A stretch of 43,876 nt of DNA from Thermodesulfovibrio sp. (GTDB lineage Bacteria > Nitrospirota > Thermodesulfovibrionia > UBA6902): positions 1-43,876 of the forward strand of contig JALSHG010000104.1 of the NCBI GenBank assembly GCA_026982355.1. The letters run 5' to 3'. Each line of letters starts with the position of its first letter. Position 1 is the first letter of the stretch. The position numbers were made by a program, and so were the translations under genes. This document shows positions 18,902-34,742 of this stretch, one piece after another. Under the pieces are notes generated by a model. The model ran no database searches, had not been told where the DNA came from, and was given only the letters and a program-made list of their open reading frames with translations.

Positions 18902-18966
18902 CCGGGCAGGAGATCCGAGGGTTTTACGGCGGACTCTCCTGCAGCCTTATGCAACATTAAGGTTTA
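18902..18966 (-). repeat. Dispersed palindromic element, copy F (left half plus hairpin)
   Basis: Read on the minus strand: ACCTTAATGTTGCATAAGGC, then a strong hairpin (GCAGGAGA with TCTCCTGC around a TAAAACCC loop); the right terminus is missing. It fills the convergent junction of mutS and the receiver-kinase gene, whose TAA stop immediately precedes the element, and could act as a two-way terminator. Confidence 0.8.
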
Positions 18967-20229
18967 CTCCACAACCGGTATCTTCACGGTGAAAGTGGTT
19001 CCCCTGCCCTCTTCGCTGTCAACCGTTATCTCCCCGTTGTGTTTCTTCACTATATCGTAGGTTATGCTCAGTCCCAGGCCCGTGCCCTTTCCGACCTCCT
19101 TTGTAGTGAAGAAGGGTTCAAATATCCTGTTGAGCATATCCTTCTGTATCCCCCTGCCCGTGTCTGAAATCGACACGCATATCGATCCGTCGGAGTTCCA
19201 CGTCCTTATCGTGATATCCCCCTGTTTTTCTATGGCCTGGCCCGCGTTGACAAGGAGATTCATGAATACCTGGTTGAGCTGGCGCGGATAACACCTTGTC
19301 ATGGGGATTTCACCGTACTCCTTGTTTATGACCGTCTTGTACTTGAGCTCGTTCCGGACGATATTCAGCGTGCTTTCAATGCACTTGTTTATATCGGCCT
19401 GCTTGTACTCCGCCTCATCCACCCTTGAGAAGCTCTTCAGGTCCTGCACTATCCTTCTCACCCTGTCGGTCCCGTCAAGGGATTCCGTTATGAGTTCCTT
19501 TATGTCTTCTGTAATATAGTCGATCTTCAGTTCTTTGCGCTTTCTGCCGAGTTCCTCGACTGCCCCGGATGCCTCAAGCCGTCCGATGACTTCGGACTGG
19601 AGGCTGATGAACTCCGTAAGCTTATCCACATATTTCCCAAGGGTGCCGAGATTGCTCGATATGAACCCTATAGGGTTGTTTATCTCGTGGGCCACCCCTG
19701 CGGCAAGCTGGCCGATGGACGCCATCTTCTCCTGCTGCAGCATGTGAGTCTGGGCCGCCTTGAGCGCCGCATATGCGCTTTCAAGCTCCCTATGCTCTGA
19801 TTCCATGATCTCGCGGGACCTTTTAAGCTCTGCGGCCTTTTCGTGAAGCTCGAGAAACACCCTGACCTTGTTTCTCAGGATGTCCGGCTCAAGGGGTTTG
19901 AACAGGTAGTCCACCGCCCCTGCCTCGTAGCCCCTGAAGATATATTTCTGTTCCTTGCTTATTGCGGTGACAAAGATTATCGGTACGTATTTTGTCCTTT
20001 CATTGCCCCTCATCAGCTCCGCGGTCTCAAAACCGTCCATGCCCGGCATCTGGACATCAAGGAGAACGAGCGCAAAATCATATTCAAGCATCAGGCCCAG
20101 GGCCTCTCTGCCTGATGACGCCTTGACAATATTCAGGCCCGGGCCCTCGAGGATGGCCTCCAGGGCAAGGAGGTTCTCCGGCCTGTCGTCCACTATAAGC
20201 AGATTCTGGATATTGCCTTTGCCGTTCAT
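18964..20229 (-). CDS. Receiver-histidine kinase, soluble
   Basis: A 421-residue cytoplasmic protein. The N-terminal receiver domain has D58 (LLDVQMPGMDG), followed by a coiled coil (125-165), HisKA with H181 in GVAHEINNPIGF, and HATPase ending in TGLGLSITYDIVKKHNGE. Its kinase half is closely related to that of the protein at 31784-33532, at the other end of the same locus. With a receiver before the kinase it probably responds to phosphate from another kinase here and passes it to the single receivers. AAAGGAGG lies five bases before the ATG. It is the last gene of the ten-gene minus-strand run. Confidence 0.92.
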   Translation of the reverse strand: MNGKGNIQNLLIVDDRPENLLALEAILEGPGLNIVKASSGREALGLMLEYDFALVLLDVQMPGMDGFETAELMRGNERTKYVPIIFVTAISKEQKYIFRGYEAGAVDYLFKPLEPDILRNKVRVFLELHEKAAELKRSREIMESEHRELESAYAALKAAQTHMLQQEKMASIGQLAAGVAHEINNPIGFISSNLGTLGKYVDKLTEFISLQSEVIGRLEASGAVEELGRKRKELKIDYITEDIKELITESLDGTDRVRRIVQDLKSFSRVDEAEYKQADINKCIESTLNIVRNELKYKTVINKEYGEIPMTRCYPRQLNQVFMNLLVNAGQAIEKQGDITIRTWNSDGSICVSISDTGRGIQKDMLNRIFEPFFTTKEVGKGTGLGLSITYDIVKKHNGEITVDSEEGRGTTFTVKIPVVE

Positions 20230-20283: not shown

Positions 20284-20322
20284 TTTTCCGGCATGCCGCC
20301 GGTTTATGCGACGTTTCAAGGT
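20284..20322 (-). repeat. Dispersed palindromic element, copy P (degenerate left half)
   Basis: On the minus strand CCTTGAAACGTCGCATAAAC then CGGCGG matches the left-end consensus with several changes. CCT TGA are the last codon and stop of the hybrid kinase gene, the same arrangement as in the better copies. Confidence 0.55.
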
Positions 20323-23300
20323 CTTGCCTCACCTGTACCAGCCATAATAGTACCGTCACGGCCGCACTCCTCTTCGTACAGCCAGACACTGATAATGGAC
20401 AACAGCTTTTCGATATTAAAGGGCTTCGCGAGATAATCACTGGCCCCAGCCTCCATACACCTGTTCCTGTCGTCCCTGCCCGCCTTTGCGGTAAGCGCGA
20501 TAACCGGCAGTTTTTCAAAGCGCTGCTGTTTCCTGATCCGCCGTATCGCCTCATACCCGTCCATCCCGGGCATCAGGATATCCATTATCACAAGGTTGAT
20601 ATCCGGATTTGCCTGCAGGCATTCCACCGCCTCCCCGCCGTTTTTTACTATCAGCACCTTCATTTCCTTCTGCTCCAGGACATTCGACAATGCGTAGGCA
20701 TTGCGCATGTCATCATCCGCCACCAGTATCTTCTTGCCTTTAAACACCTCGTTCCTGTTACGGCCCGCAACAGGTATATTGCGGGCATCTTCCGGACGGG
20801 GAGCGGCGGGAGTGCGGTTGCCGGTTTCTTCCATATTCTCCGGCCGTTCCGGCAGATAGAGGATGAACGTGCTGCCCCGGCCCTCGATGCTTTTCAGCCG
20901 GATATCGCCGCCGAGGAACCCGGCCAGTTCCTTTGATATGGAAAGGCCGAGCCCGGTGCCGCCGTATTGCCTGCTTATGTTGCCGTCCACCTGCCGGAAG
21001 GCCTCAAATATCAGTTCCTGCTTGTCTTCCGGGATACCGATGCCTGTATCGGAGACAACGACAGCCACGGTTTCTGAAGGGGTCAGGCCGCTGCCGGAAA
21101 GGCCGGCGTCCGCATCCGGGCGGCGGATGCTCAGTGTAATCCCGCCCCGGCTGGTGAATTTAAATGCATTGGAGAGCAGGTTCCTGACGATCTGCTCCAC
21201 CCTCTGCCTGTCCGTGACTATACACGCGGGCAGGCCGTCCGCCTTCTCGGTCCTGAAGCTCAATCCCTTTTCCCGGGCCACCTGTATGAAACTCCGCTCC
21301 ATGCCGAGGAGAAAATCATCAATGTCCATTTCATCGAAAGCGATCTCGACCCTGCCGGCCTCTATCTTTGAGAGATCCAGTATGTCGTTAATCAGCATCA
21401 TCAGGTCGGAACTGGCTCTGTGAATGATGGAGGCGAACTCCACCTGCTTGTCCGTAAGGTTGCCGTCCTTGTTCTGCATAAGCAGGCTGGAGAGGAGCAG
21501 GAGGCTGTTCAGGGGTGTCTTCAGTTCGTGCGACATATTGGCAAGGAATTGAGATTTATACCTTCCGCTTTTCTCCAGTTCCCTTGCCTTTTCCTCTATC
21601 ATCCGCCGGGCGTTTTCCAGCTCGATATTTTTTTTCTTCAGGTCATCCTTCTGCCTTTGAAGTTCCTCATTGGTCTGGCGCAGCCTTTCCTGCTGGATCT
21701 GCAGCCGGACCTCGGATTCCTGCAGTATCTCGGCCTGCTCTTCAAGCTCCTTGTTCGCCTCCCGCAGGTCCGCCTCCCTGACTTTCAGCTCCCCGGCCTG
21801 GCGCTGCGTCTCCCTGAGCAGGGCCTTCATCCTCGCGCGGGAACGGGCGGAGTGCAGACTCACCGCAATATCCCCGGCGGCCTGCTCAATGAACTCCATC
21901 CTCACAACCGTTATTTCGTGAAACGAGCCCAGCTCGATCACTCCCTGCACCTCTTCATCGTGCAGGAGGGGCACGATCATGATATTGCGCGGGGTAACCT
22001 CGCCCATGCCGGAACGTATCTTGATATAGTCTTCCGGGACATCCTTCAGGAGAATGCTCTTTCTCTCCGCGGCGGCCTGTCCTATCAGCCCTTCTCCGAA
22101 TTTATACCTGCGGCTGAAATCCTGCCTGCCGGTATAGGCGTAACCCGAGGCGAGCGCCAGCAGGTTGTCGTCATCGACCGTGTACACCGCTCCCACCTGC
22201 ACCTCCAGGTATGGGACGAGATAGCTGATTATATTCCTGCACAGGGCGGAAATATCCTGTTCCCCGCGCATCCGGTCGTTCAGCCCGGCCTGGCCGGTCT
22301 TCAGCCAGTTTTCTTTCTCGTTCTCGGCGGTTATCTCCCTGAGGGTGTGAATCATCCTGTTGACCGATTTGCCGAGCACGTCCTTGTCGCTCTTGACCGC
22401 AAGGGACCTGCTCAGGTCCCCGTTGGAGATGTCTTCACACACCGAGGCCACCTCCCTGAAAGAGTTCACCACGTCCCTGTAACCGGCGTTCAGTTTCCCG
22501 ATTTCGTCTTTTGATATCCCGATGTCTTCAAGGGTAAGGTCTCCCTCGGAGAGCCTCGCGGACATGTCCGCGAGCCTGCCGATGGGTTTTGAAATGTTAC
22601 GCGCGATAATGCCGAGTATCACTATGGAAAAGACTACAGCCGACACCCATATCCCCGCGCCGATCCATAAGAGATAATTCGGCACCTCGAGCGCCGCTGA
22701 CTTTTCGATTCCGAGAGCCACATTCAGCCCGAGCTCCGGAACCGTCTCCCGTGCAGTCACCCAGTCCGGCGGGTCTCCCTTCATAAAGGCAGAGACTGCG
22801 GCAGGAGCAAGGTCAACGGAGTGTGCGAGTGGCTCCCCCTCTGTATTGTATATTATGTAACTGATGCCGTCGCTTGCCAGGCCCGAGAACGTGTCTTTCA
22901 TGTAAGCGCCCACCGGCTGCTTTATCCATAAAATCCCCTCGATTTTCTTATTGAAGATCAGTGCACTGGCTGTCAGAAGCTCCCATCCGCCGGTATTCCC
23001 CCGGGAAAGCTCGTGTATCACCATGAAAGAATCCTTCCGGCCTCCCCGCGTATCCGGCCACGTGCGCCTGAACCGCCTGAACATTTCAGCATGATCATAT
23101 GTATTGAACCGTTCCACCCGCCTGTCTCCTGCAATGCGGAGGACCGGCCCGCCCGCGGCGCTTACAAGCTGGATATCGGTGTACCTCGATTTGGCCCGGA
23201 TAATCCTTATGAAAAACGATTCAAGCTCAAATTCCGCATCAAGCATCCCGTCACCGTCATCCAGTTCCATGGAAGCGAAGTAATCCTCAAACGCCTTGTG

Positions 23301-23507
23301 CGCCTGTATCGCCGAGAGGTCTTCCTCTGTCTTATCCAGCAGGTCATTCAGCAACCTGGCCCTGATCTTGAGCTCCCCGGCAAGATGCCTGACCACCGAG
23401 GACTTAAGCTCGTTTCTTATTATTATCTGCGAGACGGCCCCCTGTATGAGCAGTACAAGAGACACCAGGGTGCCTGCGGCCAGCATTATTTTCTGACTTA
23501 TCTTCAT
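20316..23507 (-). CDS. Membrane hybrid histidine kinase (sensor-HAMP-GAF-HK-REC)
   Basis: A 1063-residue hybrid kinase. Membrane helix 6-30, periplasmic sensor of about 245 residues (Cache-like by layout, not by a motif I can name), second helix 278-301, HAMP 303-355, a second HAMP-like segment to about 395, GAF domain about 415-550, a long coiled coil 560-650, HisKA with H660 (NMSHELKTPLNSLL), HATPase with SDTGIGIP and [13 protein letters not shown], and a C-terminal receiver with the acceptor Asp in IMDILMPGMDG. AAGGGG nine bases before ATG 23507 supports the start. It is the only membrane-bound sensor in the locus and the likely signal input. It has no phosphotransfer domain of its own. 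Confidence 0.93.
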   Translation of the reverse strand: MKISQKIMLAAGTLVSLVLLIQGAVSQIIIRNELKSSVVRHLAGELKIRARLLNDLLDKTEEDLSAIQAHKAFEDYFASMELDDGDGMLDAEFELESFFIRIIRAKSRYTDIQLVSAAGGPVLRIAGDRRVERFNTYDHAEMFRRFRRTWPDTRGGRKDSFMVIHELSRGNTGGWELLTASALIFNKKIEGILWIKQPVGAYMKDTFSGLASDGISYIIYNTEGEPLAHSVDLAPAAVSAFMKGDPPDWVTARETVPELGLNVALGIEKSAALEVPNYLLWIGAGIWVSAVVFSIVILGIIARNISKPIGRLADMSARLSEGDLTLEDIGISKDEIGKLNAGYRDVVNSFREVASVCEDISNGDLSRSLAVKSDKDVLGKSVNRMIHTLREITAENEKENWLKTGQAGLNDRMRGEQDISALCRNIISYLVPYLEVQVGAVYTVDDDNLLALASGYAYTGRQDFSRRYKFGEGLIGQAAAERKSILLKDVPEDYIKIRSGMGEVTPRNIMIVPLLHDEEVQGVIELGSFHEITVVRMEFIEQAAGDIAVSLHSARSRARMKALLRETQRQAGELKVREADLREANKELEEQAEILQESEVRLQIQQERLRQTNEELQRQKDDLKKKNIELENARRMIEEKARELEKSGRYKSQFLANMSHELKTPLNSLLLLSSLLMQNKDGNLTDKQVEFASIIHRASSDLMMLINDILDLSKIEAGRVEIAFDEMDIDDFLLGMERSFIQVAREKGLSFRTEKADGLPACIVTDRQRVEQIVRNLLSNAFKFTSRGGITLSIRRPDADAGLSGSGLTPSETVAVVVSDTGIGIPEDKQELIFEAFRQVDGNISRQYGGTGLGLSISKELAGFLGGDIRLKSIEGRGSTFILYLPERPENMEETGNRTPAAPRPEDARNIPVAGRNRNEVFKGKKILVADDDMRNAYALSNVLEQKEMKVLIVKNGGEAVECLQANPDINLVIMDILMPGMDGYEAIRRIRKQQRFEKLPVIALTAKAGRDDRNRCMEAGASDYLAKPFNIEKLLSIISVWLYEEECGRDGTIMAGTGEARP

Positions 23508-23629: not shown

Positions 23630-24148
23630 TTAAATCCCGGATATTTCAGGCAGTATCAGGTTGCCTTCCTCGTCCTTTTTCAGCCTTGTAATCCCGGGGT
23701 GCATCTTCTCAAGCTCCTCCAGTTCGGCTGCCTGACGCCTGACGGTCTTCAGGAGCCGCCTGTTTTCCGCCTCGAGGTCGTATTTTTCAACGGCGGACCG
23801 GACGGACAACTTCAGCTCAATGTCATCCCACGGCTTTGCAAAGAACCGGTATATCTCCCCGTTGTTGATCGCCTTCATGGCCGACTCGATGCTTGCATGT
23901 CCCGTGAGCATGATTCTCACCGTATCCGGGAAAAGCCTTCTGGCCGCGGATAAGAATTCGGTCCCGGCCATCCCCGGCATTTTTTCATCAGAGATCACAA
24001 GCTTTATATTGTGGTCCTTCAGCACGGCAAGCCCCTCCACGCCGCTGCCCGCCGTATAAATCCTGTAAGACTCCTCCCCGCTTAATGATCTCTTAAGAGC
24101 CGACAGTACACCCGGATCATCATCCACGATCAGTATTGAATGTTCCAT
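23630..24148 (-). CDS. Single-receiver response regulator with coiled-coil tail
   Basis: A 172-residue protein with a receiver domain of the RpfG/RsbU-linked type (SDEKMPGMAGTEF around the phosphoacceptor Asp, conserved KPW near residue 107) and a coiled-coil tail. It ends in a short segment (GNLILPEISGI). No output domain is present. Stand-alone receivers usually act by protein contacts or as phosphate sinks. GGGAGG sits four bases before the ATG, in the 23-base space after the receiver-ATPase gene. The receiver closely resembles those of the ATPase fusion and the HD-GYP proteins, so a family expansion inside the locus is likely. Confidence 0.9.
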   Translation of the reverse strand: MEHSILIVDDDPGVLSALKRSLSGEESYRIYTAGSGVEGLAVLKDHNIKLVISDEKMPGMAGTEFLSAARRLFPDTVRIMLTGHASIESAMKAINNGEIYRFFAKPWDDIELKLSVRSAVEKYDLEAENRRLLKTVRRQAAELEELEKMHPGITRLKKDEEGNLILPEISGI

Positions 24149-24154
24149 ATATCC

Positions 24155-24178
24155 TCCCTTTTTATGCAGTATTAAGGT
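24155..24178 (-). repeat. Dispersed palindromic element, copy G (terminal remnant)
   Basis: On the minus strand ACCTTAATACTGCATAAAAA: only the left terminus remains. CCT TAA are the last codon and stop of the receiver-ATPase gene, and the next bases lead straight into the GGGAGG ribosome site of the following gene. Confidence 0.6.
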
Positions 24179-26607
24179 TTCACGCCGCCGGTTGATTTCG
24201 CGGAGCCGCAGACGGGACAGATATTCCAGTCCTTCTCAAGAGGCAGCATGCACTGCCTGCAGAAATTCTGTTTGAAGCTCCCGCAGTAGGGACAGAACAT
24301 GAACTTCGCATCTATGGTCCTGCCGCAGTCGCTGCACAGGCGTTCATGCTTTGTCTGGGGGCCTATCACCCTGACGAGCTCCTCAAGGGTTGTCTCCCCC
24401 TTTTTGACCTTTTCGATCCCGTCCTCGATCAGGGTCCTCATCCCGCTTGCGCGGGCCATGTTCATAAGCTCCGACTCTTTATAGCCGCCGCTGATAAGAT
24501 GCCTGAAGTCATCGTTCATGATGAATATCTCGAAAATGCCGGTTCTTCCCTGGTACCCCGTATCATTGCAATGTTTGCATCCCCTGCCCCGGAAGATGTT
24601 TTCTCCGGCAAAATCCTCACGGATCTTGAGCAGCCGCAGCAGTTCCCTGTCGGGGCTGTGTTCAGTCCTGCAGTACCTGCATATTGTCCTGACGAGCCGC
24701 TGGGCCAGGATGCCCTCGAGGGCCGAGGCTATGAGGTAGGGCTTGACGCCCATGTCGATCAGCCTCGTGACCGATGCAACCGAATTGTTCGTATGCAGCG
24801 TCGTAAGCACCATGTGGCCGGTCAGCGCGGCTTTAAAAGATACATCCGCCGTTTCATGGTCCCTTATCTCTCCCACAAGGATGACATCCGGGTCCTGGCG
24901 CAGGGTGGAGCGCAGGACGGATGCAAAGGACAGGCCGATCTTTTCCCTCACGAACACCTGGCTGGCCCCTTCAAGGAAATATTCCACGGGGTCCTCAATG
25001 GTCTCAAAATTCTTCGTGCTCCTGAGCATGGCGCTCAGTATCGAGTAGAGCATGGTCGTCTTTCCGCTTCCCGTGGGCCCGGTGGAGATGATCATCCCCT
25101 GGGGTTTTTTGAGCACGAGGTATATCCTCTCGAGGTCATCCGGCAGCACGCCTAATTCATCAAGGTTCTTGATCGCCGCGCTCTTGTCCAGTATTCTCAT
25201 GACTATTTTTTCGCCGTTTATCGTGGGCATGGTGGAGACCCTCATATCAACAACCCTCGTGCCGGACTTGACGGTTATCCTCCCGTCCTGGGGCTTTCGC
25301 CTCTCGGAGATATCCATCTTGGCAAGTATCTTGATCCTTGATATCGTGGCCAGATGAAGATCGGGCGGTATCTTTATCTTTGTATGGAGCATCCCGTCGA
25401 TCCTGTACCTGATTATGGTGTATTTCGTCTTGGGCTCTATGTGGATGTCGCTTGCCCTGTACCGCACGGCCTCGGAGATAATCGCGTTCACGATCCTGAT
25501 TATCGGGGGCACCTCCGATGTTCCGATCAGCTCCTGGATGTTGATGTCCGGTTCATCCTCGGCGATGATGATATCTATCTCGTCCATGGGCTCGATCTCC
25601 GAGATTTCATCGATATCCTCGGCCGGATCGCCGTCTTTGTATCCGTAGACCCTCTGCAACTGATTCATGATGCCGGAACACGTCGCGATTACGGGGACAA
25701 CCTTGAGGCCGGTCATAAACGTAATGTTGTCGCATTTGAATATATCGGAGGGGTCGGCCATTGCCACCCGTATCTGCCTGTCGTCGAGCATCAGGGGGAT
25801 AAGGCGGTTTCTCTCGCAGAAATCCCGGGGGAGAAATCTCACGACATTCTGGTTGAGTTTTATTTCTTCAAGGTCCACGTACTCGATGTTCAGGTAATGC
25901 TGCATGGTCTTTATAATCTTCGATTCGGTTATGGCGCCGAGCCTCACGAGTGTCTCCCCCAGGAATTCATCCTCCTTCATTTCCCTGAGCGCCGCGTCAA
26001 GCGCCTCTTTTTTTATGGCGCCGGACTTGACGAGGATGCTTCCCATGGCGCCCCTGTGTTCATACATGAGTGAGGAGTACTTTTTGATCTTGATCTCCTG
26101 CTTTCTGGTTATATCCCGGAGTTTCCTGTTTTCCATTATGAGCGTATACTGCTGGAAGGCAAGGCTTACGGTAAGCCGGAGATCCTCGTCATTCCACGGC
26201 TTGGTTATGAACTTGTAGACCGCCCCCTCGTTCACCGCGCCCATGATGGACTGCACGTCGGCATAACCCGTGAGCATGATCCTTATCGTCTCGGGCCAGC
26301 GCTGCTTTATCTCCTTCAGCAACTCCGCACCCGGCATCCCGGGCATCCTGTGGTCCGAAATAATCAGGTGAATATTCCTGGTCTCCATGATTTCAAGGGC
26401 CTCGTGGGCGGAACCGGCGGTATAGATGTCGTAGTTTTCCTCAAGGAAAACCCTGCCGAGGGCCCTGAGCACGCTCTCCTCGTCATCGACGAGCAAGAGC
26501 GTGAACGGCTCCTGCCGCCGCGGCTGCGTTTCATCCGCCGCATCATCCTTATGTCCGGCGGCAGGCTCATCCGCCGCCTGCCGTTTAAACAGCCTCGCGT
26601 ATGACAT
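24172..26607 (-). CDS. Receiver-MshEN-PilB/GspE ATPase fusion with zinc ribbons
   Basis: An 811-residue protein with an unusual order. A receiver domain (35-155, D85, KPW at 136) is followed by a coiled coil and an MshEN/T2SSE N-domain (185-320, RLGAITESKIIKTMQHYL; this domain type binds c-di-GMP in MshE). Next comes the secretion/pilus extension ATPase: SDIHIEP, Walker A GPTGSGKT (510-517), Walker B ILVGEIRD and the His box TTLHTNN. A metal-binding CRYC...CKHC insertion follows, and the C-terminus has two CxxC zinc ribbons (CSDCG/CPYCG and CRQC/CPVCG). Start ATG 26607 has GGAG before it and overlaps the upstream kinase gene by 23 bases. It probably powers type IV pilus or type II secretion assembly under phosphorylation and c-di-GMP control. 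Confidence 0.92.
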   Translation of the reverse strand: MSYARLFKRQAADEPAAGHKDDAADETQPRRQEPFTLLLVDDEESVLRALGRVFLEENYDIYTAGSAHEALEIMETRNIHLIISDHRMPGMPGAELLKEIKQRWPETIRIMLTGYADVQSIMGAVNEGAVYKFITKPWNDEDLRLTVSLAFQQYTLIMENRKLRDITRKQEIKIKKYSSLMYEHRGAMGSILVKSGAIKKEALDAALREMKEDEFLGETLVRLGAITESKIIKTMQHYLNIEYVDLEEIKLNQNVVRFLPRDFCERNRLIPLMLDDRQIRVAMADPSDIFKCDNITFMTGLKVVPVIATCSGIMNQLQRVYGYKDGDPAEDIDEISEIEPMDEIDIIIAEDEPDINIQELIGTSEVPPIIRIVNAIISEAVRYRASDIHIEPKTKYTIIRYRIDGMLHTKIKIPPDLHLATISRIKILAKMDISERRKPQDGRITVKSGTRVVDMRVSTMPTINGEKIVMRILDKSAAIKNLDELGVLPDDLERIYLVLKKPQGMIISTGPTGSGKTTMLYSILSAMLRSTKNFETIEDPVEYFLEGASQVFVREKIGLSFASVLRSTLRQDPDVILVGEIRDHETADVSFKAALTGHMVLTTLHTNNSVASVTRLIDMGVKPYLIASALEGILAQRLVRTICRYCRTEHSPDRELLRLLKIREDFAGENIFRGRGCKHCNDTGYQGRTGIFEIFIMNDDFRHLISGGYKESELMNMARASGMRTLIEDGIEKVKKGETTLEELVRVIGPQTKHERLCSDCGRTIDAKFMFCPYCGSFKQNFCRQCMLPLEKDWNICPVCGSAKSTGGVKP

Positions 26608-27889
26608 TGTTCTCCTTTTTTGCAACGGGCAGGAGTATGCCGAATGCCGCGCCACTGCCGGGAACGCTCTTTACCTCGATGGTGCCTCCGTAGGATGTTA
26701 TGATGTCGTATGTGACTTTCAGGCCCATGCCGGTTCCCTTGCCCACCTCTTTTGTGGTGAAAAAAGGCTCGAATATCCTGTTTGTTATCTCCTCCGGTAT
26801 GCCGGGGCCGTTGTCGGAGAAACTTATCCTGATAAAATCCTTTTCATAACGCGTGGTGATTATGAGCTTAAGACCCTCTTTGCCCGTCTGAAGCGCATTG
26901 AGGATAATGTTGAAAAACGCCTGGCATATATGCGCGGGGCTGCATGTGAATTCGGGAAGCGGACGATAGTCCCTTATTATCTCCGCATCCCCGGGTATCT
27001 CATGGGTCAGGACATTCAGTGTCCTGTCTATCTCCCTGTTGATGTCGACCCCGGCCCTGTCCCCGTCGTCGATATGGGAGAAGTCCTTGAGGTCTGCGAC
27101 GATCTTCCTGACCCTTTCCGCTCCGTCAAGGCTCTCTCTTATAAGGTCCGCGGCGTCCGGCAGGATAAAGTCAAGCTTGTAATCCCCCCACTTCCGCCTT
27201 GTCAGGGCCCTGTTTTCATCCGTGAATTCCCCGTTTTCAAAGGCCGAACGGTACAAGACGAGCATATCACGGAATCTCGATACATACTGGTTCAGCGTGT
27301 TCAGATTGCTCACTATGAAACCGAGGGGGTTGTTGATCTCATGGGCCACTCCTGCCGCAAGCTGGCCCACGGAGGCTATCTTTTCCTGGTGCAGCAGCGT
27401 TGCAAGGGCCTGTCTCAACTCTTCCGTACGCTCGTGCACCTGTTTCTCAAGTGTATCCGCGAGGTCCCGGTACCTGCCTTCCGACAGTTGCAGCCGGCGG
27501 TTGGTCTCAAGGAGCTCGTTGTATGACTGGTCGACCACCGCCATGTGCGTTTCAGTGGCGAGCACGGATTTGAAACTGCTCCTCAGTATTGTGTTTACTG
27601 CATTGAGTATCAGCTCCGCCGCGGCCTCGATACGGCTCCTGCTGGGTTCATCCCCTCTTACGACAACATATCCCGCAGCCTCCCCTTCGAGATAAACGGG
27701 TTTTCTCAGGGTAATCATTCCTTCCCCGGAAGGGTTCCCCCAGTGACACAGAACATCCCCCCGCGAATCCTCCAGCATGACACACGGGATGCCCGATTCA
27801 ACAGCGCTCCTGAAAAAGGGTATGAGATCAATATCCTTGATTATTTCGCCAAGGCTCTTTTCAGCGCCTACTATGTACTCTTTTTTCAT
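26585..27889 (-). CDS. Soluble sensor histidine kinase
   Basis: A 434-residue kinase without membrane segments. Residues 1-110 form a sensor domain I cannot name (EIIKDIDLIPFFRSAVESGI, then LEDSRGDVLCHWG); it resembles small-ligand or redox sensing domains in layout. A coiled coil (125-168) leads to HisKA with H183 (GVAHEINNPLGF) and a HATPase with SDNGPGIP and TGMGLKVTYDII. ATG 27889 is chosen because AGAAAGG lies five bases upstream. It overlaps the ATPase fusion gene by 23 bases and follows the MglA-like GTPase gene, so it is the kinase most tightly coupled to the motor ATPase. Confidence 0.92.
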   Translation of the reverse strand: MKKEYIVGAEKSLGEIIKDIDLIPFFRSAVESGIPCVMLEDSRGDVLCHWGNPSGEGMITLRKPVYLEGEAAGYVVVRGDEPSRSRIEAAAELILNAVNTILRSSFKSVLATETHMAVVDQSYNELLETNRRLQLSEGRYRDLADTLEKQVHERTEELRQALATLLHQEKIASVGQLAAGVAHEINNPLGFIVSNLNTLNQYVSRFRDMLVLYRSAFENGEFTDENRALTRRKWGDYKLDFILPDAADLIRESLDGAERVRKIVADLKDFSHIDDGDRAGVDINREIDRTLNVLTHEIPGDAEIIRDYRPLPEFTCSPAHICQAFFNIILNALQTGKEGLKLIITTRYEKDFIRISFSDNGPGIPEEITNRIFEPFFTTKEVGKGTGMGLKVTYDIITSYGGTIEVKSVPGSGAAFGILLPVAKKENNVIREAV

Positions 27890-27977
27890 CGTAACCTTTC
27901 TGTTCGCCCTTCCCCTGATCCCCGCCCCCGGGAAATCTGAAAGCAACCGGCGTGCTCTCACCGTCGAGGGGGAATGG

Positions 27978-28631
27978 TCAGGGTGAGGGGAGTGTTAGTT
28001 TTCCCACAAATGCGGTCTTGTCAAGACCGTGTTTTTCCATGAGACCGTACCGGCGGTCGATGTGGTCGTATGTCTGCTTCACCAATTCCCGGAACGTCTC
28101 CATGACCCCGGTTCCCGTGATGGCCGAAGACATAAAGACGGGTATGCCGGTCTGTTCCCACACGCGCCTTATATCATCCTCTGCGACTATATTCCCCAGG
28201 TCCCTTTTGTTGAACTGCACGACAAGGGGGATTTTTTCTATATCGAGCCCGACAAAACCGAGGTTGTCCTCGAGATTCCTGAAGCTTTCAAAGTTGTTCG
28301 TCTCTTCGGAGACCTGCGAGTCTGCTATAAAGGCGACGCCGTCCGCCCTCTGCAGCACCGCCTTCCTGGTGGCGTCGTGTTTTACCTGGCCGGGGACGGT
28401 AAAGACTTTCAGCTTGATTTTAAGCCCGCCCGGGGCGGTGAGGAAAAAAGGCAGAAGATCGAAGAATATAGTCCTGTCGTCCTTTGTATCAAGTACGGTG
28501 AGCTCTCCCCTGCCTTCCTGCTCCACCATATCGTGAAGCCGCAACAGGTTGGTGGTCTTGCCCGACAGGGCGGGGCCGTAGTAGACCAGCTTAAGTACCA
28601 TCCTGTTGTCAATCCCGTCATACTCGATCAT
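27978..28631 (-). CDS. MglA-type small GTPase
   Basis: A 217-residue Ras-like GTPase of the bacterial MglA family, which sets cell polarity and controls type IV pili and gliding in Myxococcus and others. Walker A is GPALSGKT (19-26), the PM3 motif is TVPGQ (78-82) with Thr where Ras has Asp, an MglA hallmark, and the guanine-specificity motif is NKRD (141-144). Start ATG 28631 follows AGGGGGGAAGG. No MglB-type (Roadblock/LC7) activator gene is beside it. The C-terminal 30 residues after the GTPase fold are extra. Its place between a HD-GYP protein and a kinase/ATPase pair suggests it positions the pilus or secretion machine. Confidence 0.93.
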   Translation of the reverse strand: MIEYDGIDNRMVLKLVYYGPALSGKTTNLLRLHDMVEQEGRGELTVLDTKDDRTIFFDLLPFFLTAPGGLKIKLKVFTVPGQVKHDATRKAVLQRADGVAFIADSQVSEETNNFESFRNLEDNLGFVGLDIEKIPLVVQFNKRDLGNIVAEDDIRRVWEQTGIPVFMSSAITGTGVMETFRELVKQTYDHIDRRYGLMEKHGLDKTAFVGKLTLPSP

Positions 28632-28670: not shown

Positions 28671-29987
28671 TCATCTCCGGACCCTGACAAATATCCCGCC
28701 TCTTGACGGGTCGATCTGATAAGAGCGTCTGAGAGATTTTATGTTCCTCTCGTCAAGTTCCACGCCGACACTCAGGATCAGGAGCCCTGTGCCGGTCCGG
28801 ACATCCCGCGATATGACCATTCCCGCACGGAGGTCTTTCGGGCTCAACTGCATCTCAACAAACTCCCTTTTCTGTGTAATGCCGCTGTAAAGCTCCCTTG
28901 CGGGAGACTCGATCAGCGGACACAACCTGCCGTCGAACCTCCTGCCTGCATATTCCTTTACTTTCTTCAGTGTAAAGGCAATGGCGTTTTCCCCCCTGAA
29001 TCCCCTGACAGTGCGGTCCACAAAGTCCGCTATCGAGATAATCCGTGCCCCGAGCGGTATGTCTTCACCGGAGAGCCCGTCGGGGAATCCCCTGCCGTTG
29101 AACCACTCGTGGTGATGCCTTATGATTACCCCTGCGCTCCTCAACGGCCCGATGGAGTCAATAGCGGTCTGTCCCCTTACAGGGTGCTGCGCGTAGACGG
29201 CCTGTTCTTCCGGCTCCATCTCTTCCGTCTCCTTTGCAAGCAGTATGTCCGGAATGCCGATCTTGCCTATATCATGAAGCAGGGAGGCTGTTGAGATGGT
29301 GTGTATCTCCTCTTCGGACAGGCCCATCCGCCGTGCCGTCCTGACGGATAATTCGGCCACGTTTTTTGAATGGCTTGCCGCGTTTGCATCCCTGAGTTCG
29401 ATCAGGCCGGAAAATGCGGCGATCATGTCCCTGAAATTGTTTTCGAGGGTCTCGTTCAGCCTCTTGAGTTCCTCATTCTGCCTTCGCATCCCGCGTGTCT
29501 GCTCCTGAACCACTGCCTTAAGCCGTACATTCCATTCCTTCAGCTCTTCGTTCTGGTTTTTGACGATCCTCGTCAGTCTCTGGTTGTCTTTTATCAGGAC
29601 GAATTTCAGGAGCGCTTCATGTACAATGCGCATCAGTTCGTCATCCTTCCAGGGCTTTGTTATATACCTGTACGCCCCTCCCCTGTTTATCCCGTCTATG
29701 GCCGCGTTTACATCTGCATACCCCGTGAGGATTATCCTGCCGGCGTCGGGCGCCAGCTTCCTTGCCCGTTCGAGAAAATCCACGCCTGAGAGCCCGGGCA
29801 TTCTCTGGTCGGATATTATGAGGGCCGTATCCGTATTTTCGCTCAGGATCTTCAGCCCCTCCTCCCCCGATATCGCGGTCATGACCTCGAATTCCTCATT
29901 TGCCAGTAACCGCCTGAGGGAACGGAGGATGTTCTCTTCATCATCAACGATCAGTATCTGCAGGGGAATATCCTTCGCGGCATTCAC
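28671..29987 (-). CDS. Receiver-HD-GYP c-di-GMP phosphodiesterase 1
   Basis: A 438-residue RpfG-like protein. The receiver has D60 (SDQRMPG), a long coiled coil spans 132-185, and the HD-GYP domain has H238-D239 (LLHDIGKIGIPD), HHE at 292-294 and GFP in place of GYP at 300-302, followed by DFVDR. About 90 residues follow the domain. HD-GYP enzymes hydrolyse c-di-GMP; the GFP variant and Asn for Asp in FNGRG may alter activity or partner binding. The start is a GTG that overlaps the previous gene's stop (GTGA), showing translational coupling to the second HD-GYP gene. Confidence 0.92.
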   Translation of the reverse strand: MNAAKDIPLQILIVDDEENILRSLRRLLANEEFEVMTAISGEEGLKILSENTDTALIISDQRMPGLSGVDFLERARKLAPDAGRIILTGYADVNAAIDGINRGGAYRYITKPWKDDELMRIVHEALLKFVLIKDNQRLTRIVKNQNEELKEWNVRLKAVVQEQTRGMRRQNEELKRLNETLENNFRDMIAAFSGLIELRDANAASHSKNVAELSVRTARRMGLSEEEIHTISTASLLHDIGKIGIPDILLAKETEEMEPEEQAVYAQHPVRGQTAIDSIGPLRSAGVIIRHHHEWFNGRGFPDGLSGEDIPLGARIISIADFVDRTVRGFRGENAIAFTLKKVKEYAGRRFDGRLCPLIESPARELYSGITQKREFVEMQLSPKDLRAGMVISRDVRTGTGLLILSVGVELDERNIKSLRRSYQIDPSRGGIFVRVRR

Positions 29988-30961
29988 CGGGGGTCCTCCG
30001 TCTGTTCAGGGCTGTCGATACATTCAATGAGTGGAGGGAAAAGATCGACTATTTCGGGGTCGAAGCTGCTGCCTTTCATCGACAGGATTATCTCCATGCC
30101 TTTTTTCATGGAGTAAGCCTTTCTGTAGGACCTGTCCGAGGTGAGGGCGTCGAATACATCGGCCACCGCGACGATTCTCGCCTCAACCGGTATGTCCGCC
30201 CCGCTGATCCCGGCGGGATAGCCCTTCCCGTCATATCTCTCGTGGTGATAGAGAATGATATTTACAATCACCTCCGACAACCGCGCCTGTCTTGCGACAT
30301 CGGCTCCCCAGGCAGGGTGTTTCTTTATGAGATCGAATTCACTGTCATCCAGTGCGCCGGGTTTATTGAGGATTGAGCCGGGTATGCCGATCTTTCCGCA
30401 GTCGTGGAGCCAGCCGCCGTATCTTATATCCCTTACCGTCTCTGCCGGAAGCTTAAGCGCCCCGGCAATCGCAACGGCATATGAGGCCACCCTGTCGCAG
30501 TGCCCCCTGGTGTACTTGTCCTTCAGCTCGATTGTCCCGGCAAGAGACAGCAGTGTCGCCTCGTCCGCCCTTTTCAGCGCGCGTACGATGCGGAAGCGGT
30601 CGATCCCCTCTCTGACCGTCCGGATGAAGTCATCGTCGTCCCACGGTTTTACTATGAACCGGAAGACCTCCCCCCGGTTGATCGCGTCAATGGCGGTCGG
30701 AAGGTCCGCATATGCGGTCATGAGTATCCTTACCACGTCCGGCGAGAGTGTTCTCACCTTCGAGAGAAGCTCTATCCCCTTCATCCCGGGCATGTGATTG
30801 TCGGAGACGAGCACGGCTATGTTTTCGTTTCTTACGAATTCCAGGGCATCCTCGGCATTATCCGCCTTCAGGATGTTAAGTCCGTCTTCGCTGAACAGCC
30901 TCTCTATGGAGTTCAGGATGTTTTTCTCATCATCGACAAGCAGCACAATATCATTATTCAT
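29984..30961 (-). CDS. Receiver-HD-GYP c-di-GMP phosphodiesterase 2
   Basis: A 325-residue protein with a receiver (D54 in SDNHMPGM, KPW near 105) joined by a short linker to a canonical HD-GYP domain: H154, H186-D187 (LHDCGKIGIP), HHERYDGKGYPAG (239-251) and ADVFDAL. All expected metal and substrate residues are present, so it should be active. It is coupled to its neighbours by overlaps (8 bases upstream, 4 downstream). Together with the variant HD-GYP next door it forms a pair of one canonical and one divergent enzyme. Confidence 0.94.
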   Translation of the reverse strand: MNNDIVLLVDDEKNILNSIERLFSEDGLNILKADNAEDALEFVRNENIAVLVSDNHMPGMKGIELLSKVRTLSPDVVRILMTAYADLPTAIDAINRGEVFRFIVKPWDDDDFIRTVREGIDRFRIVRALKRADEATLLSLAGTIELKDKYTRGHCDRVASYAVAIAGALKLPAETVRDIRYGGWLHDCGKIGIPGSILNKPGALDDSEFDLIKKHPAWGADVARQARLSEVIVNIILYHHERYDGKGYPAGISGADIPVEARIVAVADVFDALTSDRSYRKAYSMKKGMEIILSMKGSSFDPEIVDLFPPLIECIDSPEQTEDPR

Positions 30962-31781
30962 TGCCGGCTACCTCGTCAAAGGCCAGGATGATGCCGTCCT
31001 GGCCGCCGGGATACTTCATATGCACGCCCCTGATCCTGATGCCGGAGCCGTTTTCTGAAATATGCCCGGAAAGTTCCCCTTTCCGGGCAACCTCTTCAAT
31101 AAAAGCGTTTATCTCATCGGAGAACGAGTCTCTCCTGTCCATCCCCATGAGGTTGTCCTCTCCGCCGCCGATAAGTTCGAGACCCTTCCTGTTGCACTGC
31201 ACTATCAGGCCGTCAGGGTCTATGCCCACCACTCCGACGGGCAGTGAATCAAGGATGTTCTGTGAACATGCCAGTATTCTGTTGTGCATTATCACGTCCG
31301 CCGTCTTCTCCTCGACAATTCTCTCGAGATTGTCGTTTATCTCCTGAAGCTCCCTGTTTTTCGATTCCAGTTCCTTTGTGAGCTGGATGTTTTTCTGCTG
31401 CATGAAATAGCAGTCAAGGGCGTTGGATATCGCCACCTTCAGCTCATCGTCATTCCAGGGCTTCGGGATGAACTTGTAAATCTGTCCTTCATTTATGGCG
31501 CCCACGATGGCCGCGGCATCCGCATACCCGGAAAGAACTATCCTGACCGTATGAGGCCAGTGCCGGCAGACCTCTTTCAGGAAGTCGACACCGTTCATCC
31601 CCGGCATCCTGTAGTCGGAAATCACGATCTGCACCGGCGCCTCCCTGCCGAGGATCTCTATCCCCTCGTCTCCGGACATTGCCGTGAGAATCTCATAGTC
31701 GGAATCAAGAAAGAGTCTCCGGAGAGACCTCAGGACGTTTCTTTCATCGTCCACGCAGAGAATTTTTATCTGCTCCTCCAT
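30954..31781 (-). CDS. Receiver-PAS response regulator
   Basis: A 275-residue protein. The receiver has D56 (SDYRMPGMNG, KPW around 108), a coiled coil spans about 130-160, and a PAS domain (NRILACSQNILDSLPVGVVG, then CNRKGLELIGG) ends the protein. There is no catalytic or DNA-binding output. The PAS may sense a small ligand, form dimers or bring partners together. It follows the Cys-rich kinase gene after two bases, so that kinase is its probable phosphodonor, and overlaps the next HD-GYP gene by eight bases (ATGAATAA). Confidence 0.9.
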   Translation of the reverse strand: MEEQIKILCVDDERNVLRSLRRLFLDSDYEILTAMSGDEGIEILGREAPVQIVISDYRMPGMNGVDFLKEVCRHWPHTVRIVLSGYADAAAIVGAINEGQIYKFIPKPWNDDELKVAISNALDCYFMQQKNIQLTKELESKNRELQEINDNLERIVEEKTADVIMHNRILACSQNILDSLPVGVVGIDPDGLIVQCNRKGLELIGGGEDNLMGMDRRDSFSDEINAFIEEVARKGELSGHISENGSGIRIRGVHMKYPGGQDGIILAFDEVAGNE

Positions 31782-31783
31782 TG

Positions 31784-33532
31784 CTAAGGTTCCTCCACTA
31801 CGGGTATTTTTATTGTAAAGGTGGTGCCCTTGCCGACCTGACTGTCAACCGTTATCTCGCCATCGTGTTTTTTCACTATCTCATAGGTTATGCTCAGTCC
31901 CAGGCCCGTGCCCTTGCCGACCTCCTTGGTCGTGTAAAACGGCTCGAATATCTTGGTTAATCTGTCCTCCGGTATGCCGCTTCCGGTGTCTGATATCGAT
32001 ACATATATCGAGCCGTCGCTGCTCCAGGTCTTTATCCTGATCTCCCCGCGGTTCTCTATGGCCTGGCCCGCATTGACAAGGAGATTCATGAACACCTGGT
32101 TGAGCTGCTGCGGATGACACATTGTCAGGGGAAGTTCCCCGTAATCCTTTCGGACGTCCGCATTGTACTTGAGTTCGTTCCAGACGATGCTCAGCGTGCT
32201 CTCAATGCAGTCGTTGATGTCGGCCGGCTTGCTCTCCGCCTCGTCGATCCTTGAGAATGTCTTGAGATTCTGAACTATGGTCTTCACCCTGTCCGCTCCC
32301 TCAAGGGATTCGTTGATCAGGGGTTCGATATCATCGAGTATATAGTCGATCTTCAACTGCCTCCTCCGCTCTCTGAGAGCGGCGAGCTGCTCCCGTCCGT
32401 TGAACTGCTCTGCACTCCCGGTAAGCTCGCGCACATAGCCGGCAAGCTTGCCGGCATACTTGCCGAGTGTGCCGAGATTGCTCGATATAAAACCCATGGG
32501 ATTGTTGATCTCATGGGCTACGCCTGCTGCAAGCTGGCCGATGGATGCCATCTTCTCCTGCTGGAGTATCCTTGTCTGTGTGTTTTTCAGTTCGGCATAT
32601 GCATTCTCAAGCTCTTTGTTCTTCATTTCAAGGACATGCATCATGTTGTTGAACTGTTCCCCTATCTGGTACACGGGGTCCGACGTGGCCTTTTTAAACA
32701 CTATGCAGGCAGAGCATACATCGTATTTGTCCGCGAAAGACTCCAGTCCTCCATCCCGGCAGAGGGTGCCTTCAGTCTGCCAGCATCTTGCGGGGCCCTT
32801 GCCGAAACAGACACATTTCGTCCTCCCGCATTTTATCAGTTCATAGCACTTGCCCAGGTTCGGATTGGAAAACCTGACTCCGTAGTCAAGCTGCTTTGTA
32901 ACGTTCTGTATCAGCGCCGTTATCTCCCTGAGGCCGGACCGGAGTTTTTCCCTGTTCTCATTGACCATCCTGTTTGAATTCATAAGCTCTTCCGTGATGA
33001 CTTTCAATTCGGTGTTGTCATGGATCGTTATTACGGTGCCCGGCGAATTCATGTCACTGTCGCTGTACGGATATGTGTTGAGCTCAAACCATTTACCGGT
33101 GGAGCTCTGGAAAAGCTCGGCGCTTCCGCCGTGACGCGTTCTGACCTCCATGTTGTTTTCGCGGAGAAACTCTTCCCAGCCCTTCCGGATAATCATGTGG
33201 TATGGCATACCGGTGAATTTTGCAAATGAGCGGTTGCATCTTCGGATGATCCCGTCCCTGTCCGTAAGGATTATCATATCCCCCACACAGTCCATGGTCC
33301 TTTCCCATTCCCTCTTCGCATTCTCCACCAGCTTGAAGGCTTTGTTCAGCTCTTTATGCTCCCTGATAAGGAGTTCCTGTGTACGCAGGATTTCTTCCTC
33401 CGCCTTCTTGAAGTTGCTCTCCGATATTTTCAATCTGTCGACCTGCAGGCGCAGATCATTCAGTTCAGCTATCAGCTGTTCTTTTGTCTTTTCCTCATCC
33501 CGTGATACAGGGACGCCCAAGTCTACATCCAT
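31784..33532 (-). CDS. PAS histidine kinase with an eight-cysteine sensor segment
   Basis: A 582-residue soluble kinase and the first gene of the locus. A coiled coil (12-75) is followed by a PAS domain (78-185) and then a Cys-rich stretch with C229, C235, C240, C242, C250, C258, C273 and C276 (CGRTKCVC, RCWQTEGTLC, CSAC), suited to bind a metal, an Fe-S cluster or heme. HisKA follows with H340 (GVAHEINNPMGF) and HATPase ending GLGLSITYEIVKKHDGE. Start ATG 33532 has GGGAG six bases upstream. The kinase half is a paralogue of the protein at 18964-20229. The last codon and stop, CCT TAG, recall the repeat-derived ends of other genes here. Confidence 0.92.
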   Translation of the reverse strand: MDVDLGVPVSRDEEKTKEQLIAELNDLRLQVDRLKISESNFKKAEEEILRTQELLIREHKELNKAFKLVENAKREWERTMDCVGDMIILTDRDGIIRRCNRSFAKFTGMPYHMIIRKGWEEFLRENNMEVRTRHGGSAELFQSSTGKWFELNTYPYSDSDMNSPGTVITIHDNTELKVITEELMNSNRMVNENREKLRSGLREITALIQNVTKQLDYGVRFSNPNLGKCYELIKCGRTKCVCFGKGPARCWQTEGTLCRDGGLESFADKYDVCSACIVFKKATSDPVYQIGEQFNNMMHVLEMKNKELENAYAELKNTQTRILQQEKMASIGQLAAGVAHEINNPMGFISSNLGTLGKYAGKLAGYVRELTGSAEQFNGREQLAALRERRRQLKIDYILDDIEPLINESLEGADRVKTIVQNLKTFSRIDEAESKPADINDCIESTLSIVWNELKYNADVRKDYGELPLTMCHPQQLNQVFMNLLVNAGQAIENRGEIRIKTWSSDGSIYVSISDTGSGIPEDRLTKIFEPFYTTKEVGKGTGLGLSITYEIVKKHDGEITVDSQVGKGTTFTIKIPVVEEP

Positions 33533-33849
33533 AATGTTCTCCCTGCTTTTCCGCCTCTGCATCTGTCCGGTTCATGGTGATCCGCGTTAATCCTAGGCCG
33601 AATTGCATAATTACAAAGGGTTACGGTTTTCATATTGCTGCCTGTGTCCGGCCGTTCCAGCCGGACAAACTCACCTCCTGTTCTGTTTTTTTCCCTGCAA
33701 TTCTTATCGGATAGTAAGAAAGGCCGCTAAATAGGGGGATCCCCGACATCCGGGCGGCAGAAAGCCCGATGCTGCCGTAAGGCTTTCAGACACCGGTGTT
33801 TTTTGTCGATGCACGGTTAAGGTAAAACCGGAGATATAAAGGTGGGGGG
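33533..33849 (-). other. Intergenic region upstream of the signalling locus
   Basis: A 317-base gap that should hold the promoter of the ten-gene run. On the minus strand a perfect anti-SD complement (AGGAGGTGA, at 33671-33679) stands before no known gene; it is followed by a hairpin (33646-33666, GTCCGGC with GCCGGAC). A 20-base imperfect palindrome with TTCTTA/TAAGAA arms lies at 33701-33720. A hairpin with GGCTTTC arms lies around 33758-33789. No convincing -35/-10 or sigma-54 site was found. Confidence 0.45.
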
Positions 33850-34374
33850 TTACTGAGACGACTTGTTCGCTCTTCTTTTCAACATCGTCTTTCTCGGGGC
33901 CTTGTATACAAACCAGTCTTCCTTGGTTATTTCATGAAAGTAGTCCGCCTCGTCAATCAATATCCTCGCGGTCGTCTGTCTTACGGCGGCAATCTCCACC
34001 CTTACGCCCTCCCCCTTCAGGTGCAGAACCAAGTCCACGAAATCCGCATCGCCCGACATGATGATGATGGTGTCGACCTTTGAGGCGAGTTGTGTGGCCT
34101 TGATGGAAAGGGGGATATCAGCGGACTTGTGACACGGAACAACCGAGCCGTAATAATTCTCGTGCAGTCTCTCGGCGAACTTGGAGGAAATGGCCTTCCC
34201 CTCGCGGAAATAAAGCAGTCTGTTCAATCCCCTGTCGTTCAGCAGTTTGGGGATCAATGTGTCAAAATTGATCATGGTGTTTTTCGACCCGGAAAGGTCG
34301 TGGATACTGCGTTCGATGTTATTGCCGTCGCAAAGTATCGCCACCGATTGATTGATGAGAATGTTTTCCACCAT
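33850..34374 (-). CDS. NYN-domain (LabA/DUF88-like) putative ribonuclease
   Basis: A 174-residue protein with a NYN/PIN-like fold. Conserved acidic residues are seen in VAILCDGNNIE (D16), KSADIPLSIKA (D87) and MSGDADFVDL (D109, D111), the pattern of LabA/Vpa0982-type NYN proteins that bind metal and probably cleave RNA. Start ATG 34374 is chosen for the AGAGGG site upstream; the open frame continues to 34509 but that part lies in the GTCATTCC palindrome and looks non-coding. The C-terminus is very basic (RKTMLKRRANK), fitting nucleic-acid binding. It is a lone gene, apparently not part of the signalling unit. Confidence 0.88.
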   Translation of the reverse strand: MVENILINQSVAILCDGNNIERSIHDLSGSKNTMINFDTLIPKLLNDRGLNRLLYFREGKAISSKFAERLHENYYGSVVPCHKSADIPLSIKATQLASKVDTIIIMSGDADFVDLVLHLKGEGVRVEIAAVRQTTARILIDEADYFHEITKEDWFVYKAPRKTMLKRRANKSSQ

Positions 34375-34431
34375 TTTACACACACCCTCTTGCAGTGCCG
34401 GCGTTGTAATGCCGTGCTGTAGTACAATGTC

Positions 34432-34507
34432 GTCATTCCCGTCAGCCGGGACTCGGGTCATCTCCGGTTCCGGGCCGCTCCGGGATGGGGACGGGAGCCG
34501 GAATGAC
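34432..34507. repeat. GTCATTCC/GGAATGAC inverted repeat
   Basis: A 76-base imperfect palindrome starting GTCATTCCCGTC and ending with GGAATGAC, with further GC-rich inverted arms inside. It lies upstream of the NYN gene. Similar GTCATTCC palindromes are common in several bacterial phyla. A related fragment lies at 1978-2002. Confidence 0.6.
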
Positions 34508-34742
34508 ACCGGAGAGTTGATACGACACTATGATAGCATGCAGCCCCTCCTGTTGCAAGAGACAATAAGCCACCGTGAATTGCTCTGATTGTGCTCTTCT
34601 CTATCAATTATTGATTTATTGTTCTTGTCCTCCATGCCGTCTCTCCCGGCTTTAATCCATACGCGCTTCGACTTTGACGTTTCCGTGGGATTCGGGCCTC
34701 CGAGCTTGACAAAGCGGCTTTAATTGCATTACGTTTGTATGT

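Follow-up and report, generated by a model that had tools for sequence, protein, structure and literature searches.

The signalling locus around an MglA-type GTPase

The window, which is the whole stretch of 43,876 nucleotides analysed here, comes from Thermodesulfovibrio sp. (contig JALSHG010000104.1 of assembly GCA_026982355.1). An MglA-type GTPase of 217 amino acids is encoded on its minus strand at positions 28631–27978, with the ATG at 28631 and the stop codon at 27980–27978; the plus-strand frame across 27978–28631 is interrupted by stops. A preliminary description of the window had given these coordinates exactly and left the strand unstated. The GTPase gene belongs to a minus-strand run of signalling genes between positions 33562 and 18964, which is flanked by unremarkable genes, mutS and pdxJ among them. 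An NYN-domain gene, possibly for an RNase, is located just upstream of this run on the same strand (33850–34509).

The setting among kinases, HD-GYP and ATPase genes was correctly recognised in that description. On the upstream side, the domain scan revealed a PAS histidine kinase (31784–33562), a REC-PAS protein (30954–31781) and two REC-HD-GYP proteins (29984–30961 and 28671–29987). The latter directly precedes the GTPase and falls into the NosR family of c-di-GMP phosphodiesterases (NF053512, 459 bits with a cut-off of 400). Directly downstream of the GTPase lies the histidine kinase HK_B (26585–27961), with its H, N and G boxes intact and its probable start at an ATG around 27889. It is followed by a REC-MshEN-T2SSE ATPase of the PilB/GspE type (24172–26655), a single-domain response regulator made up of REC and a short tail (23630–24148), a hybrid histidine kinase with the arrangement HAMP-GAF-HisKA-HATPase-REC (20316–23507), which is not a constant member across loci, and a REC-HisKA-HATPase kinase (18964–20229).

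The P-loop of the GTPase reads GPALSGKT, the arginine finger Arg53 is part of a DDRT motif, and TVPGQ and NKRD are both present, so that the assignment to MglA, which had been made on these last two motifs, is borne out. The nearest solved relatives are the MglA proteins of M. xanthus and Thermus, with E-values from 1e-46 to 5e-42, as compared with about 1e-4 for eukaryotic Ras. Residues 11–193 align with M. xanthus MglA (E 1e-46), and TVPGQ, the arginine finger and NKRD are common to both proteins. Group 1 MglA proteins are marked by the arginine finger and TVPGQ (PMC4316618), and the features listed for this group by Wuichet & Sogaard-Andersen (2014) are TVPGQ in G3, [NT]KxD in G4 and an arginine finger beside the G2 threonine. 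Across 46 named loci from other genomes, G3 is TVPGQ in 44 and TVPGH in two, NKxD is kept in all 46 (with the variants NKGD in L014 and NKKD in L029), and Arg53-Thr54, the arginine finger together with the G2 threonine, is invariant. Judged by its G3 and G4 motifs and its arginine finger, the window gene carries the signature of a Group 1 MglA. In the two loci with TVPGH (L034 and L039), the catalytic glutamine is replaced by a histidine. A phage origin of the GTPase was also considered and discarded, as a search of a phage collection gave no match.

The locus ATPase resembles MshE, PilB and GspE in its T2SSE module with intact Walker motifs and in its MshEN-type N-terminal domain, but differs from them in having an N-terminal REC domain, a C-terminal double zinc ribbon and an unmatched c-di-GMP motif. 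It is present in 44 of the 46 loci, and the contigs of the other two (L002 and L041) end inside the kinase gene. The first three cysteine pairs of the ribbon are kept in all 40 sequences that reach it. Sensing of c-di-GMP by this ATPase was rejected, since the MshEN domain is recognised but the c-di-GMP-binding residues of V. cholerae MshE are replaced: the position of Arg9 is occupied by Ile, Ala or Val in 38 of 45 locus ATPases, that of Arg38 by Phe in 39 and that of Gln32 by Lys or Arg in 35, and none of the 45 sequences contains the relaxed form of the c-di-GMP motif, 24 residues long, published by Wang et al. Phosphorylation would therefore be a likelier input to the ATPase than c-di-GMP. 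The window genome encodes three T2SSF proteins and carries, on contig C48, genes that resemble a PilB-PilT-PilC set, as judged by their length and order. No T2SSF gene lies beside the locus ATPase, which would thus have to act on another platform.

A distinct MglA clade with alanine at position 21

The Ala21 MglA-like GTPases form a distinct clade with a P-loop mark of their own. Position 21, in M. xanthus numbering, is the Gly12 position of Ras; the window GTPase has an alanine here (codon 28571–28569). Of the 46 named loci, 45 share this alanine and one (L014) has Ser, whereas the MglA proteins of 40–45% identity in the same comparison all have Gly; the 40 additional loci of the Ala21 type that were examined have Ala without exception. 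A maximum-likelihood tree of 80 rows contains a long branch (2.49) with a support of 100/100, on one side of which stand the 47 Ala/Ser rows, including the window, and on the other the 33 Gly rows; SofG, Bdellovibrio MglA and Groups 2–5 were left out of this tree, as were L048/L080 (a partial copy on another contig of the L026 genome) and L063–L072, whose matches duplicate loci already included and were assumed to stem from the same genomes. The identity to the window GTPase is bimodal among the matches listed, being either 64–100% or below 50% in the phylum and either 60–78% or below 48% in the class of Geobacter argillaceus, and a clade member from Marinobacter (L047) shows 53% identity. Cultured members include Geobacter argillaceus (L045) and Geothermobacter hydrogeniphilus (L035). 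The other positions fixed differently between the Ala21 and Gly21 types include L59, H85, R95 and W158.

The record of L002 is titled Deferribacteres bacterium, yet its GTPase shares 93–94% identity with the window gene, itself placed among Nitrospirota rows, and the label may be wrong. L073–L079 and further Nitrospirota rows are MglA-like GTPases in open frames of 300–640 amino acids with a C-terminal extension, which gave no Pfam match in the five examined; the P-loops of the seven, L073–L079, have Gly21.

The exchange of Gly21 for Ala had been overlooked in the preliminary description. Among nine species with MglA and no MglB, Milner et al. (PMC3983030) give Ala or Ser at position 21 for five and Gly for four, and they take the Ser21 of Bdellovibrio MglA to suggest a GTP-bound state. 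In Thermus MglA, the substitution G21V lowers kcat 7-fold (PMC3000849). From these reports on Bdellovibrio Ser21 and Thermus G21V, we infer by analogy a slow or GAP-insensitive GTP turnover for the Ala21 type. The change suggests that classical MglB-type activation might not apply at all to these GTPases.

The absence of an MglB neighbour, which had been pointed out before, was confirmed, as none of the 10 locus proteins scanned has a Robl_LC7 match. The suggested search of the window genome (2.62 Mb in 119 contigs, 100% complete and 0.55% contaminated) for Roadblock/LC7 proteins was carried out with the PF03259 profile and gave no match at E<=0.001. With the same profile, Roadblock proteins are detected in 6 of 47 genomes from the order and in 103 of 295 from the phylum. 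The survey of genomes that carry an orthologue of the window GTPase took in 47 genomes, including that of L049 with a different MglA; for the 46 others, a Roadblock match was obtained in 23 and none in 23. In 21 of the 23 Roadblock-bearing genomes, the Roadblock gene adjoins a separate Gly21 MglA with a Gly-Pro-Gly P-loop, and in the remaining two (G081 and G087) the match is merely weak, short or partial. Over the 295 genomes of the phylum, Roadblock is found in one of the eight with Ala21 MglA alone, as a partial match of 42 positions, in 99 of the 120 with other MglA (4/4 with both types and 95/116 with the other type alone), and in three of the 167 with no MglA. From this distribution, it is the Gly21-type MglA that Roadblock tracks, not the Ala21 type. 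The idea that the activator of the window GTPase is encoded at a distance found no support as a general account, since no Roadblock match was obtained in the window genome or in half of the orthologue genomes, and in 21 of the 23 others it lies beside Gly21 MglA; on the same grounds, no mglB gene elsewhere emerged as the clear partner in all relatives. Coupling to an MglB gene, which is a Group 1 trait, is absent for the window GTPase. Such coupling is typical rather than obligatory, with 390 of 449 MglA family members coupled and 59 uncoupled (Wuichet & Sogaard-Andersen 2014).

Near-exclusive pairing with the N-terminal domain of HK_B

The gene after the GTPase encodes an HK_B histidine kinase in all 46 named loci, across phyla. 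With ORFs counted from the first start codon, the spacing between the two ranges from a 305-base overlap to a 162-base gap, and in the Marinobacter locus HK_B is a divergent relative. The locus members other than the GTPase, HK_B and the ATPase differ between loci, and this includes the other kinases. Because 46 loci from other genomes keep the GTPase–kinase pair, the pair is not a matter of chance.

Two alignments of the kinase N-terminal region, A1 and A2, were made with 41 rows each, namely the window and 40 of the 46 kinase loci; L002, L010, L015, L016, L041 and L044 were omitted as near-identical or partial or to limit length. A2, as a profile of the N-terminal domain, was searched against whole genomes. 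In the 295 genomes of the phylum, strong matches (E<=8e-13) occur in all 12 genomes with Ala21 MglA and in none of the 283 others, and three weak matches were obtained outside the Ala21 genomes. In the class of Geobacter argillaceus, represented by 277 genomes, strong matches occur in all 68 Ala21 genomes and in two of the 209 others, with six weak matches elsewhere. The gap between strong and weak matches in this class, from E 3.7e-24 to E 7.6e-6, argues against a large overlooked population of such domains. The kinase N-domain is thus found in 80 of 80 Ala21 genomes in the two groups, where it has to be borne in mind that the profile was built from GTPase-adjacent loci and is most sensitive there, and that neither the co-occurrence counts nor the Fisher values allow for shared ancestry. 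The two genes lie within 400 bases of each other in 64 of the 68 pairs of the class and are separated by 473 bases in G640; the pairing is kept even with the genes 8.6 kb apart (G575 and G602) or on separate contigs (G569). The pairing of Ala21 MglA with the HK_B N-terminal domain is near-exclusive and well supported. The two class genomes that have the kinase N-domain without Ala21 MglA (G591 and G601) could reflect loss of the GTPase or an incomplete assembly.

The Roadblock fold has the topology α1-β1-β2-α2-β3-β4-β5-α3, and a single superfold is common to Roadblock, GAF, profilin and PAS domains. The N-terminal α/β domain of HK_B (27527–27883) is predicted to have a Roadblock/GAF-like superfold, judging from AlphaFold models, structure comparison, hhalign and co-occurrence, and provides a candidate surface for the GTPase. 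The AlphaFold model of the window domain together with its coiled coil (A1) has a pLDDT of 87.5. Its structural matches include DosP (GAF) with a Z-score of 10.3, the Roadblock protein 8fw5_G with 10.3, IclR with 9.6 and M. xanthus MglB with 9.4; as the tool counts rows that differ by no more than 1 Z as tied, MglB ties here with the GAF and IclR folds. The window model has no α2 helix between strands 2 and 3, which several relatives appear to have. It is through the α2 helix that M. xanthus MglB touches MglA, with its C-terminal helix making contact too (PMC6785124).

The domain of one relative, L018, modelled alone (pLDDT 88, pTM 0.81), is built in the order of a helix, two strands, a helix, two strands and a long helix. 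The first five ranks of its structural matches are all MglB, from M. xanthus (Z 11.4, 10.8 and 10.6) and from Thermus (10.4 and 10.2), the top one with an rmsd of 2.4 over 107 residues, and the best non-Roadblock matches are IclR (10.1), profilin (9.1) and GAF (8.9), with the tie rule of 1 Z holding here as well. About 36 of the 50 matched rows, judged by their titles, are Roadblock proteins or C-terminal domains of Rag GTPases. In Foldseek, neither the window model nor that of L018 had a match at E<=0.001; its order for L018 starts with a GAF-containing chain of CodY, followed by LAMTOR and MglB. Since all these domains belong to one superfold, the fold evidence favours Roadblock without settling the matter.

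At the level of sequence profiles, hhalign aligned A2 with an MglB profile (A3) over 26 columns, with the β1–β2 hairpin in register, a probability of 44% and a score of 29.8; the highest score among 200 column shuffles was 21.5, and that of the reversed profile was 16.2. Pfam and PDB sequence-profile searches of the kinase N-domain gave nothing convincing. PF03259 was absent from all 18 families obtained for the 41 domain members at E up to 10, and also from the 25 of 60 families listed elsewhere. Diacid_rec appeared at E 0.0012 in three of the 41 members, a hint of a sensor domain, and where A2 matched other proteins weakly, it did so in ordinary sensor domains. The N-domain is less conserved than the GTPase. 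The most conserved stretch, above the domain itself, is the helix that follows it (27392–27571, consensus KRMLTTExHTTVVxQSYEELL), in which K105, H113 and S120 to N128 of A1 are nearly invariant; a parallel with the MglA-contacting C-terminal helix of MglB is only suggestive. All in all, the models lend moderate support to reading the HK_B N-domain as a Roadblock-like (MglB-like) domain that has diverged and become part of a kinase.

A candidate partner for the GTPase and its alternatives

We propose, with a probability of about 0.5, that the dedicated partner of the Ala21 MglA is not a free MglB but the adjoining histidine kinase, whose fused, divergent Roadblock-like domain would take the place of MglB; the proposal is drawn from sequence comparison and structural models. 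The earlier thought that a protein of the locus replaces the activator thereby gains a specific candidate, HK_B, with its near-exclusive N-domain and predicted MglB-like fold, and HK_B is a candidate for both activation and binding. The proposal is favoured by the pairing counts, the fully supported clade, the distribution of Roadblock, the fold of the L018 domain, the hhalign score and the hydrophobic β2 face of the window-type GTPase (F56, F57 and L59); in M. xanthus, the MglB dimer binds MglA through the β2 strand of MglA (F56, F57 and F59) (PMC6785124). What speaks against a Roadblock identity is the missing α2 in the window domain, the mixed fold matches, the absence of PF03259, the mere 26 columns of the hhalign alignment, the Foldseek outcome, the weak matches in sensor domains and the lower conservation of the domain relative to the GTPase.

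Histidine kinases are dimers, and in the proposed mechanism dimerization of the kinase would place two N-domains side by side to form a platform similar to the MglB dimer, on which one MglA-GTP could dock through its β2 strand. GTP-bound MglA would then set the autophosphorylation of the kinase, or the state of the kinase would set the GTPase. The phosphate would pass to the REC proteins of the locus, that is, to the REC-HD-GYP enzymes, which would lower c-di-GMP, and to the REC-PilB/GspE-type ATPase, which might act on a pilus or secretion platform. As Ala21 likely makes cycling slow or GTP-biased, a role of the N-domain as an effector or adaptor for the readout of MglA-GTP is more probable than one as a strong GAP. 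Only tentatively would we go further and regard the N-domain as an MglB/Roadblock regulator that was fused to a kinase and diverged past profile recognition, the kinase dimer and the GTPase as one switch, the change from Gly to Ala as a consequence of GAP-driven turnover being unused, and the whole as a family of GTPase-gated kinases in at least three phyla.

Given the weak profile matches in ordinary sensors, the kinase N-domain may also be a generic sensor domain. An alternative interpretation, which we hold to be possible but somewhat doubtful, is then that this domain senses a small molecule, like domains of the GAF/Cache/PAS class, that the GTPase works without a GAP through slow intrinsic hydrolysis owing to Ala21, and that the two genes are co-inherited in one signalling island without direct contact. 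The tie of GAF and IclR with MglB for the window domain and the leading place of CodY in the Foldseek order for L018 fit well with it, as do the Bdellovibrio MglA with Ser21 and no MglB (PMC3983030) and the reduced kcat of Thermus G21V (PMC3000849). It is harder to reconcile with the near-exclusive pairing in the two groups, which survives separation of the genes while the other kinases of the locus vary, and with the domain with an intact α2 (L018), which ranks MglB first.

Two further interpretations appear far less probable. One is that the GTPase serves mainly in polarity or recruitment, with the locus ATPase and a pilus platform as its targets, as in the case of M. xanthus MglA and SgmX, under REC control like that by RomR, with the kinase domain being incidental. 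The almost constant REC-PilB/GspE ATPase, the PilB-PilT-PilC-like set on contig C48 and the response regulator RomR with which M. xanthus MglA works (PMC4316618) would be in line with such a role, but it leaves the constant presence of this particular kinase domain unexplained, and no T2SSF partner is encoded next to the locus ATPase; we regard this role as improbable. The other, which we consider about equally improbable, is that the Ala21 genomes contain a divergent free MglB missed by the Pfam model. MglB can drift, as the Bacteriovorax protein is reported to be 22% identical to that of M. xanthus (PMC3983030). However, PF03259 readily detects MglB in related genomes of the order and phylum, and where it was examined in genomes with Ala21 MglA, it adjoins a Gly21 MglA.

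The proposed partnership with HK_B touches on two questions that are still open, namely how small GTPases work without GAPs and how G proteins are connected with two-component systems. In the Ala21 clade, a natural exchange of the residue equivalent to Ras Gly12 is fixed throughout a lineage, and one named protein is a constant companion of the GTPase. If the kinase domain does bind the GTPase, a Ras-like switch would be linked directly to a phosphorelay, to the breakdown of c-di-GMP and to a motor of the pilus/secretion type, and the locus would exemplify a Roadblock regulator that is both fused and hidden.

Compared with the MglA/MglB system of M. xanthus, the window differs in that position 21 of the GTPase is Ala rather than Gly, a free MglB is missing, and the constant neighbour is a histidine kinase. 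The orphan MglA of Bdellovibrio bacteriovorus is similar in that there is no mglB gene and position 21 is not Gly but Ser (PMC3983030). However, the Bdellovibrio gene retains its usual dnaX-recR neighbourhood with mglB lost, whereas the window gene has a conserved two-component locus, a clade of its own and a paired kinase. Membership of the locus in the electrode-sensing esnABCD genes of Geobacter was rejected: in the accessible text of the reports on them, MCP, CheW, CheA and diguanylate cyclase genes are given, and no GTPase. Thus MglA without MglB is already known, both from the 59 uncoupled family members and from Bdellovibrio, and so are kinase–Roadblock–GTPase operons in the form of actinobacterial conservons. 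In the accessible parts of the open-access literature, to which our search was directed, no description was found of this locus or of a Roadblock–kinase fusion paired with MglA. As far as that search reaches, what is new is a clade of Group 1-type MglA with a fixed Ala21 and an obligate kinase with a predicted MglB-like N-domain.

There is a likeness to the conservons, in which a kinase (CvnA), a Roadblock protein (CvnB), CvnC and an MglA-family GTPase (CvnD) occur together (PMC4316618, PMC13343842), just as a kinase, a Roadblock-like element and an MglA-type GTPase do here. The locus is nevertheless not a conservon, since its GTPase has the arginine finger, TVPGQ and NKRD, and no CvnB-like Roadblock gene is present. 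Conservons, as these sources describe them, have a Group 2 GTPase with an altered G4 and no arginine finger, a separate Roadblock protein and no response regulator. The window, in contrast, combines Group 1 motifs with a predicted Roadblock-like domain within the kinase and several REC proteins in the locus.
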